Positions 267 to 21,255 of a stretch of 36,222 nt of DNA are shown here, in pieces. Position 1 is the stretch's first letter. Every line of letters starts with the position of its first letter. The position numbers were made by a program, and so were the translations under genes. The notes under the pieces are model-generated. The model searched no databases, was not told the DNA's origin, and saw only the letters and a program-made list of their open reading frames with translations. Where the stretch lies: assembly GCF_000314895.2 (NCBI RefSeq), contig NZ_CM001773.1, forward strand, positions 2,870,327 through 2,906,548. The letters run 5' to 3'. The DNA is from Providencia sneebia DSM 19967. GTDB lineage: Bacteria; Pseudomonadota; Gammaproteobacteria; Enterobacterales; Enterobacteriaceae.

Positions 267-1562
267 TCAACCTGCTTTTTTAACCAACAGATTCGCAATT
301 GTTCTCACACCAATCCCCGTCGCGCCTTCTGCCCATAAGCTGACAGGAGATTTACGGTAAGTGGCAGAACAGTCAATATGCAGCCAGTTTTGCTGATAAT
401 TTTCAACAAAGTGTGATAAAAATGCAGCCGCAGTACTTGCACCCGCTGTATTCGAAGGCGAAGCAATATTATTTAAATCTGCAAAACCTGACGGCAATTG
501 GTGACGGTGGAATTCAGCTAATGGTAAGCGCCAAAATAGTTCAAACTCATCATCTGAAGATGCCATTAAATCAGCCACTGCTTTATCATCAAAACTTAGA
601 ACTGAGTGGTAATCATTACCCACAGCGGTTTTCGCAGCACCTGTTAATGTTGCTGCATCAATAATTAAAGTGGGTTTTTCTTTGCTCGCATCAATAAGAC
701 CATCCGCCAATACCAAACGGCCTTCAGCATCAGTATTCATGACTTCAACTGATTTACCATTACGATAGCGAATAATATCGCCTAATTTAAATGCATTGCT
801 GCTGACCATATTGTCGGCAAGGCATAAGAATAATTTGACGCGTTTTTTCAATCCACGCGTGATAGCAAGCGCTAATGAGCCAACTAATGTTGCTGCGCCA
901 CCCATATCAGCTTTCATTGAATTCATTGAAGATGTTGGTTTAATGCTATAACCACCTGAATCAAAAGTAATACCTTTACCGACTAAACAAGCAAAAACAG
1001 GTGCATTCGCATTACCCGTTGGGTTGTAATCTAGTGCAAGTAATGCAGGTGGACGACTTGAACCACGACCTACAGTATAAATACCTGCATAACCTTGATC
1101 ATTTAAATCTTCACCTTTAATAATACGGTAGCTAATATCTTCACCGCCAACATGGCCTAGTAGATCAATCGCGCGCTGAGCGAGTTGCTCAGGTCCTAAC
1201 TCTTCAGAAGGCGCATTGATCACATCACGCACCCAATCAATTGTTCTGATGCGGCTTTCTAATTCTTTGCGATCCGCTTCTGGAAGAACAGGCCACTCAA
1301 TGGTTCTTGCGCCTTTAGGTGCACGAAAACCTTGCCAAAATGCCCAGCTTTTTTCCAGATCCCATCCTTCGCCAGTCAAAGAAACATTGCGTATTCCTTG
1401 TCCATCTAATTTACGTCCAGCACTTTGCACAGCACAAAGCTTTCCTGGATGTTTTAAATGGATAGTAATCCCTTTATCACCAGAACTGATCAACGCGCCT
1501 TCACCCCAACACGGTGCCGCAGGTTCCATAGAAATCATTACTGGCATAATTTGTTTTGTCAT
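267..1562 (-). CDS. pepB: Peptidase B, leucyl aminopeptidase family M17
   Basis: PepB is a cytosolic manganese-dependent aminopeptidase that removes N-terminal residues from peptides. The protein aligns over its whole length with E. coli PepB (427 residues). The M17 metal-binding and catalytic motifs are intact: [14 protein letters not shown] and the signature [14 protein letters not shown]. The start at 1562 gives 431 residues, matches the E. coli N-terminus and has GAGA upstream; an in-frame ATG at 1604 would add 14 residues with no clear ribosome binding site. In E. coli pepB is the last gene of the isc cluster; here the genes that normally precede it are missing and yajD lies upstream in the opposite direction. 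Confidence 0.95.
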
Positions 1563-1604
1563 CGTTTCTCTCACTTTATCTGTTTTTGCAGGCCGCGCCA
1601 TCAA

Positions 1605-2035
1605 TATATCTGAACTGATATAAATACCTTAACTGATTAATTGCCAAGCCGCTATCAAGTTAGTGCTTATGATAATTATTTAACTCGCTGATCCTCAAAA
1701 CATCTTAACATAGGGATGATGGAAAAATATTTTAGTGTTTCCGTTAACTATATGGCAAGTCATGAGGATCGCATCTCATTATAATGATAAGTTAATCAAC
1801 GAATGTTATATCCAAGATATAATTGATGAATAACAAAATGATATGACGGTACAAAATAAGGTGAAAAAATATTGAAGGTAATAGTGAGTACGTTTGATCC
1901 CCCGCGATTAATCAATATCAAAGTGTTAAACCGCGTTTTATCTTAATGAACAGTGCTATCAATAATGATTGAGATCTTCTAATTCACACGATAAGGTATA
2001 TTAAAACCACATTTATACATGACAGGTAATATATC
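1605..2035. other. Intergenic region where the isc distal genes would be expected
   Basis: These 430 bases separate divergent pepB and yajD. I see no open frame of note and no recognisable remnant of iscX, fdx, hscA, hscB, iscA or iscU. The stretch is AT-rich. It should hold the promoters of both genes: a TATATT-like -10 lies near 1998 for yajD, and pepB must have its own promoter because the upstream isc operon is not continuous with it. Confidence 0.5.
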
Positions 2036-2383
2036 ATGGCTGTAATCCCCAAAAACTATTCCCGCTTAGAAAGTGGCTACCGAGAAAAAGCACTCAAGAT
2101 TTATCCATGGGTTTGTGGGCGCTGTACCCGTGAATTTGTTTATTCTAATTTGCGTGAGTTAACTGTGCACCATATTGACCATGATCATACTAATAACCCT
2201 GAAGATGGTAGCAATTGGGAGTTATTATGCCTTTTCTGCCATGATCATGAACATTCAAAATATACTGAAGCAGAGCAATATGGCACGAATGTTATTGCAG
2301 GTGAAGATGCACAAGATGACATCCCTGCGGCAACGTATAATCCATTCTCTGATTTAAAATCTATGATAAATAAGAAAAAATAA
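2036..2383 (+). CDS. yajD: HNH nuclease-fold protein YajD
   Basis: The 115-residue protein is nearly identical to E. coli YajD from MAVIPKNYSRLESGYREKAL onward. It has a zinc-type HNH fold: a first CxxC pair (CGRC), the core VHHIDHDHTNNPEDGSNWELL, then CLFCHDHEH with the second pair of cysteines and the final His. The family is predicted to bind or cut DNA; its role is not established. In E. coli yajD is not next to pepB or iscS, so its position here marks a rearrangement. It converges with iscS and shares a terminator with it. Confidence 0.93.
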   Translation: MAVIPKNYSRLESGYREKALKIYPWVCGRCTREFVYSNLRELTVHHIDHDHTNNPEDGSNWELLCLFCHDHEHSKYTEAEQYGTNVIAGEDAQDDIPAATYNPFSDLKSMINKKK

Positions 2384-2409
2384 CGAATACTTGCTGAAAA
2401 ACTAGTGAC

Positions 2410-2446
2410 AGAAAAGCCCTTATGGTTAACCAATCAAGGCTTTTCT
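2410..2446. terminator. Bidirectional terminator between yajD and iscS
   Basis: AGAAAAGCC at the left pairs with GGCTTTTCT at the right, with a bulge and inner GGTT/AACC pairing. It lies between two convergent genes. The T-runs are partly inside the stem. Confidence 0.6.
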
Positions 2447-2527
2447 ACTAAAAACAGGATGTTTGCAATTTTGCAATGATGATATAGCCAAACAGTATCG
2501 TTAAAGCCTCATTATCACATCTGATTT

Positions 2528-3688
2528 TTATGACAAGGAGATCTCGCGTAAACGGCTAATTGCGCTATGAATCTGTTTGATTGCATAGTCAATCTCTTCT
2601 TCTGTCGTAAAACGGCCTAATGAGAAACGAATTGAGCTATGAGCAAGCTCGTCATTTATTCCTAATGCGCGTAAGACATAAGAAGGTTCTATGCTAGCAG
2701 AAGTACAAGCAGAACCCGAAGACACCGCCAAATCTTTTAAAGACATTATCAGTGATTCACCTTCAACATGGTTGAAGCTGACATTCAAGATATGAGGAGC
2801 ACCACTTTCCAAATCGCCGTTGAGATAAACGTCTTCAATGTCTTTGATACCATTCCAAAGGCGTAGACGCAATTTACGCAGGCGCGCAGATTCATCTGAC
2901 ATCTCTTCTTTAGCAATACGGTAAGCTTCGCCCATACCAACAATTTGATGCACAGGTAATGTTCCTGAACGCATGCCACGTTCATGACCACCGCCATGCT
3001 GTTGAGCTTCAATATAAACACGCGGTTTGCGACGCACATATAATGCACCAATCCCCATAGGGCCATACAATTTATGGGCGGAGAATGACATTAAATCAAC
3101 TTTTAAGGTTGATAAGTCAATGGGGACTTTACCCACGCTTTGGGTAGCATCAACATGGAAAATAATATCGCGACTGCGGCATATTTCACCAATTGCGGCG
3201 ATATCTTGAATAATACCAATCTCATTATTCACATGCATAATAGAAACAAGAATGGTGTCATCTCGTAGTGCAGCTTCTAATTTTTGCAGGTCAATCAACC
3301 CATTACTTTCAGGTGAGAGATAAGTTACCTCAAAACCTTCGCGTTCAAGCTGATGGCAGGTATCCAAAACCGCTTTGTGTTCTGTTTTACAGGTGACAAT
3401 ATGCTTGCCTTTCTCTTTATAGAAATTAGCAGCACCTTTAATTGCCAAGTTATCAGATTCTGTCGCACCTGAAGTTAATACGATTTCGCGCGGATCTGCA
3501 TTGACGAGATCTGCGACTTGATTACGTGCAACATCTACAGCTTCTTCAGCTTGCCAGCCAAATCGATGTGAGCGGGAAGCTGGGTTACCAAAATTACCGT
3601 CTATGGTTAAACATTGCATCATTTTTTCAGCAACACGTGGATCTACGGGGGTGGTTGCTGAATAATCAAGATAGATAGGTAGTTTCAT
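2528..3688 (-). CDS. iscS: Cysteine desulfurase IscS lacking the C-terminal tail
   Basis: IscS is a PLP enzyme that takes sulphur from cysteine and passes it as persulphide to IscU, TusA, ThiI and other acceptors. The protein aligns without gaps with E. coli IscS (404 residues) through [15 protein letters not shown], and keeps the PLP lysine (SAHKLYGP, about 206) and the active Cys loop (SGSACTSAS, about 328). It stops at residue 386 (RLREISLS), so about 18 C-terminal residues of the E. coli form are missing. That tail is part of the IscU-binding region. No other frame downstream encodes the tail. The start has GGAG upstream. It is co-directional with iscR, 143 bases away, and no iscU follows. 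Confidence 0.95.
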
Positions 3689-3831: not shown

Positions 3832-4329
3832 TTAGGCACGGACATTGATGATAGTTTCAGGTGAAAGACTATCTAAAATTGTACGACGTTTTTCGCTATC
3901 TTGTCTGTCTGCAACAACCAGAACTTCTTGATTTTTCACTAGCTCACCAAGGCTAATGCTACTCAAAAAGTCAGTGATTCGATCACTAAGATCACGCCAT
4001 AAAGCGTGGGTCAGACAACGATCACCATTTTGGCAACCTTCTTTATTACCCTGACAACGCGTCGCATCAACAGATTCATCAACAGCTGCAATCACTTGAG
4101 CAACGAAAATTTGATCCGCTTCCCGGCCGAGTAAATACCCCCCACCAGGACCACGAACGCTTGCAACAAGCTCATTCTTGCGTAAGCGAGAAAAGAGTTG
4201 CTCAAGATAAGAGAGAGAAATTCCCTGACGTTCAGAAATGTCAGCTAATGGCACTGGGCCTGTGTGAGAATGTAATGCAACGTCTAACATTGCAGTTACG
4301 GCATAACGACCTTTGGAAGTGAGTCTCAT
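3832..4329 (-). CDS. iscR: Iron-sulphur cluster regulator IscR (Rrf2 family)
   Basis: IscR is a winged-helix regulator that senses a [2Fe-2S] cluster and represses its own operon when cluster-loaded. The N-terminal helix-turn-helix and wing ([29 protein letters not shown]) match E. coli. The three cluster cysteines and the histidine are present in [17 protein letters not shown]. There are six residues between the first two cysteines instead of the five in E. coli. The tail after about residue 135 differs from E. coli. GGAG lies before the ATG, and a near-consensus type 1 IscR site lies upstream, so autoregulation is expected. Confidence 0.95.
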
Positions 4330-4367
4330 AACATATACTCCGTGGTAAAATATAGCCCAATTGTGAC

Positions 4368-4392
4368 ATTCCTGACTAATTTAGTCAACTAT
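4368..4392 (-). promoter_or_regulatory. IscR type 1 operator and iscR promoter
   Basis: On the reverse strand the site reads ATAGTTGACTAAATTAGTC followed by AGGAAT. It fits the inverted-repeat type 1 IscR motif and closely resembles the E. coli iscR promoter. The TTGACT inside it can serve as the -35 element, so bound IscR would block polymerase. It lies 39 bases upstream of the iscR start codon. Confidence 0.75.
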
Positions 4393-4433
4393 TTACCTGA
4401 CCATTTCACTCAAGTATTATCCACGATTAATTG

Positions 4434-21055: not shown

Positions 21056-21255
21056 TTTTAAATTACATAACCATGTAGCTCAAATGAGGTAAGATAGGTG
21101 GTGCCTCACTCCACGTGTCGCCCTGTGTTTGATAAAGCTCGAAAGCGAATATCTATGATGTTGGACGGTAGGCACCTTACTTTGGCATCATTCCGGGTTT
21201 ATGTGGTATGTTCCCACCTAATTGTGGACCGACATAATAAGTTGAATGAGCAACT
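21056..21255 (-). ncRNA. glmY: GlmY-like small regulatory RNA
   Basis: In E. coli GlmY lies between purL and glrK and, by binding RapZ, protects GlmZ, which raises GlmS synthesis. Here the same position and strand carry an RNA beginning AGTTGCTCATTCAAC, very like the E. coli 5' end. It can form the GlmY/GlmZ-type first stem: TCATTC pairs with GAATGA and TTATGT with ACATAA. A second stem pairs GGTGCCT with AGGCACC. The 5' end is placed 12–13 bases after the sigma-54 -12 element. The 3' end is uncertain: a weak hairpin near 21060 or the strong one at 20995–21025. Confidence 0.75.

Follow-up and report, generated by a model that had tools for sequence, protein, structure and literature searches.

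We describe a 36,222-nucleotide stretch of the Providencia sneebia DSM 19967 chromosome (contig NZ_CM001773.1, positions 2,870,327 to 2,906,548; hereafter the window) in which the iron-sulfur cluster (ISC) operon is reduced to the regulator gene iscR and the cysteine desulfurase gene iscS, followed by the aminopeptidase gene pepB. The six-gene module iscUA-hscBA-fdx-iscX is absent between iscS and pepB. Taken together, the sequence evidence makes it very probable that the module was deleted in this lineage and that the sulfur mobilization (SUF) system is its only iron-sulfur (Fe-S) cluster assembly system. In the textbook picture, drawn from E. coli-like enterobacteria, ISC meets everyday needs and SUF is the second system, reserved for stress; relatives of full genome size that dropped ISC several times would mean that this order is reversible. 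Bacteria with SUF only are already known, and what appears to be new here is the repeated loss within the model group for two systems, with the docking sites of IscS and frataxin decaying together.

Absence of the ISC module from the window and the genome

The initial annotation had described iscS and pepB in their usual order and on the same strand, a reverse-oriented yajD in the place of the six genes, and 430 empty bases, and this layout is borne out on each count. Both iscS and pepB lie on the minus strand, and open reading frame positions together with NCBIfam models place yajD between them in the opposite orientation. NCBIfam equivalog models name IscR, IscS, YajD, PepB, TrmJ and inositol-1-monophosphatase in the window. 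P. vermicola IscU, IscA, HscB, HscA, Fdx and IscX have no match within the window's first 12 kb. Remnants of isc genes were considered for the gaps on either side of yajD (1605-2035 and 2384-2527) and rejected, as the matches were at chance level (the best being an IscX piece, E 0.09); in the larger gap, about the first 60 bases alone resemble the stretch before pepB in relatives. Of the comparison of the pepB-iscR interval that had been proposed, the Providencia part shows that P. vermicola, P. alcalifaciens and P. burhodogranariea each have the complete six-gene module at this site, flanked by iscS and pepB, and that the window has none of it. We dropped yajD as a part of the loss mechanism because the 20 further Providencia genomes in which it occurs carry it at other sites and 3 of 24 lack it. 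As an observation on yajD itself, its neighbours differ across the three relatives' loci inspected, and one genome (G399) has a second copy, 74% identical.

The module is also absent from the rest of the genome. The assembly comprises 3.88 Mb in four contigs and is rated 99.97% complete, and the chromosome contig that carries the window measures 3,856,882 bases. The IscU profile PF01592 has no match in the whole assembly, with the E. coli control positive; by this search no IscU/NifU scaffold is encoded. When the P. vermicola proteins were joined into a single query (IscU-IscA-HscB-HscA-Fdx-IscX), six matches were obtained in the assembly up to E 0.1: an Hsp70 protein 43% identical to HscA, which we take to be DnaK; SufA, encoded next to sufB; an A-type protein that we take to be ErpA; two weak matches in the Hsp70 region and one in the ferredoxin region (E 0.096, 30% identity). 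HscB and IscX were unmatched at this threshold. Of 24 Providencia genomes, the window genome is the only one to lack IscU.

Genome searches for iscU, hscA, hscB, fdx and sufABCDSE, as the initial annotation had advised, thus found the suf genes and not the ISC module. Its suggestion that the genes had simply moved is not upheld, with IscU, HscB, Fdx and IscX unfound across an assembly of such completeness. Rearrangement does occur, since this genome has a displaced yajD, a gene whose neighbours vary between species, but we consider it very unlikely that isc genes relocated within the chromosome or onto a replicon were overlooked: searches of the assembly with the family profile and with the P. 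vermicola proteins returned none, and relocation leaves the loss of the IscS tail and of cyaY, described below, unexplained. Even less credible, as judged on the assembled sequence, is a misjoin behind which the real genome retains its operon. The size of the contig and the completeness of the assembly speak against it, the same scar recurs in other genera, and misassembly is unlikely because the IscS tail, the three IscS substitutions and the stops in cyaY all lie away from any join.

The SUF system is present in full. SufB and SufD are encoded at C1:2007531-2010333, and sufA, sufB, sufC, sufD and sufS are contiguous. Loss of sufE was considered and rejected, the gene being located 7.9 kb downstream of sufS (C1:2019604-2020005); its product is 81% identical to SufE of genome G090, and in both genomes an L,D-transpeptidase-like gene and pykF come next. 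All six genes have open frames, and the set corresponds to an E. coli-type SUF system. The interval between sufS and sufE (C1:2013558-2019359) holds a LysR-type gene and an apparent chaperone-usher fimbrial set, which split the SUF operon. Elsewhere in the genome csdA adjoins a CsdE-like gene, and MnmA is encoded.

IscS, IscR and frataxin

The IscS of the window is recognisable as an IscS-type cysteine desulfurase by its scores above the TIGR02006 and PRK14012 cut-offs and by C328, K206 and H104. It has 386 codons, compared with 404 in the three Providencia species named above, a difference that the initial annotation had passed over, and its match ends at residue 384 of the 404-residue query, which is matched from 1 to 404 in each of the 23 remaining Providencia genomes. 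Its residues 1-384 correspond gaplessly to the same residues of E. coli IscS, so E. coli numbering is used here; what is missing is the C-terminal tail of the IscU interface. According to PMC2854127, IscU touches the C-terminal helix R379-K391 of IscS, and IscU binding is reported there to be reduced or abolished once residues 374-404 are deleted.

We compared 133 IscS sequences, 98 encoded beside iscU (90 distinct) and 35 without iscU (34 distinct), and the results were unchanged when distinct sequences alone were used. L386, M389, W401 and H404 are all retained in 98/98 IscS with iscU and in 0/35 without. As a further control, 30 of 30 previously unused iscU loci, including those of reduced genomes of 0.4-0.6 Mb with IscS 63-70% identical, keep the SPLWxM tail core and W401; H404 varies.

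Within the core (residues 1-383), the 98 IscU-linked sequences agree without exception at 154 positions, and the window IscS departs from them at just three of these, R112H, R225Y and L333I. The enrichment of changes at partner sites (P = 0.0014) is post hoc, as the list of partner sites was compiled after the changes had been seen. According to PMC2854127, R112E reduces IscX binding and R225E/E227R abolishes binding of IscX and CyaY, both sparing ThiI, and L333A leaves TusA- and ThiI-dependent nucleosides at 110 and 100% with the IscU-dependent 2-thiocytidine (s2C) at only 20%. PMC3750173 places ferredoxin and CyaY on R220/R223/R225, with ferredoxin contacts on R112/R116, and R112 and R116 are among the residues tested for binding of acyl carrier protein in PMC13343975. 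Binding of ThiI is reported in PMC2854127 to be reduced by R116E, R220E, R223E and R237E/M239E. While R112, R225 and L333 are lost from the window IscS, R116, R220, R223 and R237 are kept, as are the TusA contact residues W45, E49 and D52. Across the 35 IscU-less sequences W45, E49, D52, R237 and C328 are retained without exception, and R112 is altered in 31. Columns 89, 90, 101, 120, 196, 260, 285 and 346 of the alignment were also seen to be at least 95% fixed with IscU and less than 70% fixed without; as to two of these columns, K101E/K105E is reported to leave ferredoxin binding unaffected and F89E to lower ThiI binding.

These features can be accommodated as follows. Deletion of the iscUA-hscBA-fdx-iscX module would leave SUF as the sole assembly system. 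IscS would then serve acceptors such as TusA and ThiI in tRNA thiolation and in the supply of cofactor sulfur, and selection on its IscU, CyaY, Fdx and IscX surfaces would therefore be lifted. IscS thus presumably acts in tRNA thiolation in this organism. As its second explanation, the initial annotation had proposed that the organism depends on SUF and retains IscS to thiolate tRNA and IscR to regulate; the presence of SUF and the changes in IscS agree with it, and the thiolation role is one that we infer. IscS might instead have been recruited as the sulfur donor for SufBCD. We judge this improbable, although IscS is found in 41/42 large IscU-less genomes, the exception being the fragmented G362, and sufE is separated from sufS in the window genome; against it, sufS and sufE both have open frames, sufABCDSE stand together in 19/19 other SUF loci inspected, and the TusA contact residues are kept.

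IscR scores above the TIGR02010 and PRK10857 cut-offs and has an intact Cys-rich stretch, which we take to be its Cys ligand stretch. In an alignment of 38 sequences, the window shares the two palindromes before iscR, presumably IscR sites, in similar form with IscU-bearing genomes and with five named loci that lack IscU. With SUF as the sole assembly system, IscR would be matured by SUF and would remain a sensor of Fe-S supply that governs its own operon and, probably, suf; it may now report on SUF supply.

The frataxin gene cyaY is intact in the 23 other Providencia genomes and is a decayed pseudogene in the window genome, which, alone among 24 of the genus, captures the process with cyaY still recognisable. 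The remnant (C1:156596-156793) contains an internal TAG and an internal TAA, covers profile positions 37-104 and is 52% identical over 71 residues. Across 392 genomes of the family, 254 have both IscU and CyaY, 23 IscU alone, 3 CyaY alone and 112 neither; the three with CyaY alone are the remnant of the window genome, a weak match in G224 and the fragmented G362. Among genomes of at least 3 Mb, CyaY is found in 217/219 with isc-linked IscU, and intact CyaY in 0/45 without. The two large genomes with isc-linked iscU in which CyaY was unmatched are G022 and G313, the latter 84% complete. The 45 are the large genomes lacking isc-linked IscU for which a size was listed; G362 (330 contigs, IscU and IscS unfound) is excluded, and G141, G219, G304 and G364 are counted among them despite an IscU-like match, because their isc loci lack iscU and they have further desulfurases of 43-48% identity. 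We read these IscU-like matches as NifU and the extra desulfurases as NifS; in all four genomes they lie away from the isc locus, perhaps in nif clusters. The genus coded g141 is mixed, with G141, G304 and G364 lacking iscU beside iscS and G236 having IscU and CyaY.

Recurrence across Enterobacterales

The module is missing from 7 of 80 IscS loci from named taxa (Rouxiella badensis, Ewingella americana, Erwinia persicina, a Pantoea metagenome-assembled genome (MAG), UBA2655, an Enterobacterales MAG and Regiella insecticola), and the IscS tail is cut or altered in all seven. A further 27 loci also lack the module, with the tail likewise cut or altered, and with the window included the tail is degenerate in 35/35 IscU-less loci. 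In 32 of these 35, again including the window, iscR adjoins iscS, and in 32 of the 33 that were re-examined the matches to iscS and pepB are 52 to 894 bases apart. Three of the 33 retain pieces of the module in this gap, stop-bearing fragments of hscA in L175 and L176 and of iscX in L177, and these survivors indicate that the module was lost in place. All 42 IscU-less genomes of at least 3 Mb have SufBD, a result that is partly circular because the sizes given in the SufBD table decided which genomes entered the large set. No SufBD match was found in six IscU-less genomes (G077, 0.2 Mb; G198, G272, G299, G323 and G336).

A tree was built from IscR, PepB, TrmJ and SuhB for 82 rows (52 of the 80 named loci, the window and 29 further loci), of which 79 were used and three dropped. 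Presence of the module requires five changes on this tree, five being forced by starred branches; shuffled data required 25.1 changes on average, and none of 500 shuffles was as low as five. The five changes are read as losses because the Vibrio and Aeromonas outgroups possess the module. The IscS tail also changes five times, in step with the module. The same deletion thus appears to have occurred at least five times in Enterobacterales, leaving iscS, mostly with iscR. Drift unconnected with module loss could in principle account for the truncation of IscS and the loss of cyaY, and two of the 219 large genomes with isc-linked IscU do give no CyaY match. We nevertheless hold drift to be a very poor explanation: the tail is intact in every IscU-linked sequence and in no IscU-less one, its core is kept in all 30 further controls, and five of five independent pairs are concordant, a comparison in which p cannot go below 0.0625.

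On balance we favour, with less assurance than the deletion in P. sneebia itself, a wider reading in which the ISC system of Enterobacterales was taken apart on at least five occasions along one route: the module was cut, the tail of IscS and parts of its CyaY/Fdx surface eroded, cyaY was lost, and SUF, the 'stress' system, was left to do all the housekeeping. Such natural deletion mapping would distinguish the side of IscS that serves Fe-S assembly from the side that serves tRNA, and it suggests that selection maintains bacterial frataxin for ISC alone. Because the losses arose independently and are probably not of one age, they can serve as a test of which IscS residues serve which partner, as well as of whether frataxin has a role apart from ISC.

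Several points weigh against deletion with reliance on SUF and retention of IscS for tRNA thiolation, or against its generality. The function of all parts is read from sequence. A search covering about one third of the chromosome found neither TusA nor ThiI, and 7.9 kb separate sufE from the end of sufS, where the distance in G090 is 72 bases. L333I is a mild change, and PMC2854127 reports that E. coli IscS carrying L386R or M389R still bound IscU. F89 and R116, kept in the window, are lost in 23/35 and 18/35 IscU-less IscS respectively, which does not fit a pattern that purely preserves ThiI binding. Finally, the tree comes from a quick search with support from the Shimodaira-Hasegawa-like approximate likelihood ratio test (SH-aLRT) only, L071 and L060 form long branches and the outgroup does not fall on one side of a branch, and the independent pairs are subject to the floor on p given above.

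Relation to known systems and feature coordinates

Compared with the E. coli arrangement (iscRSUA-hscBA-fdx-iscX-pepB plus sufABCDSE), the window genome shares the order of iscR, iscS and pepB, the suf gene set and the operator-like sites before iscR, and differs in that six genes are gone, the IscS tail is lost, cyaY is broken and sufE is split from sufS. PMC11559095 states that most bacteria have one system, usually SUF, and that E. coli and related enterobacteria have both. Mycobacterium tuberculosis is similar in having a complete SUF system and an ISC operon truncated to iscS (PMC10848736); it belongs to a distant phylum, and its IscS is described there as tuning Fe-S regulators and suf expression, whereas in the window iscR-iscS still occupy the isc site usual in enterobacteria, and the loss arose recently within the genus. 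The alphaproteobacterial iscRS-suf operon of Caulobacter likewise keeps iscR and iscS without other ISC genes and relies on SUF only, but there iscRS heads the suf operon (PMC11475020), while in P. sneebia suf lies about 0.86 Mb from iscRS on the chromosome. Within the open-access texts covered, we found no report of iscUA-hscBA-fdx loss in Enterobacterales or of IscS tail erosion; a survey of more than 9,000 genomes cited by PMC11559095 may tabulate the distribution.

Table 1. Coordinates of features at the isc locus of the window.
Feature	Position	Strand	Basis or remark
pepB, aminopeptidase B	267..1574	-	NCBIfam PRK05015, 723 bits; 92% to PepB of P. vermicola; flanks the isc cluster
pepB-yajD gap	1605..2035		31% G+C; isc remnant undetected
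yajD, HNH nuclease family	2036..2383	+	NCBIfam PRK11295, 203 bits; relocated to this site
Hairpin, possible terminator, between the convergent ends of yajD and iscS	2408..2446		66-base stretch, z -3.7
iscS, cysteine desulfurase, 386 aa	2528..3688	-	TIGR02006 and PRK14012 above cut-off
Changed iscS end, REISLS then stop	2528..2541	-	Comparison with P. vermicola
IscS codon 333, Ile	2690..2692	-	Leu in 98/98 IscU-linked IscS
IscS codon 225, Tyr	3014..3016	-	Arg in 98/98 IscU-linked IscS
IscS codon 112, His	3353..3355	-	Arg in 98/98 IscU-linked IscS
iscR, regulator	3832..4329	-	NCBIfam PRK10857 and TIGR02010 above cut-off; Cys-rich stretch present
Two palindromic operator-like sites before iscR, TGACTAATTTAGTCA and TGACCATTTCACTCA	4366..4420		38-sequence alignment

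The longest frame of pepB begins at 1604. The hairpin between yajD and iscS is not among the calls of the consensus terminator scan; when the 66-base stretch was folded, none of 200 shuffles was equally stable. The window also contains the small RNA GlmY at 21095-21255 on the minus strand (Rfam RF00128, 138.6 bits).

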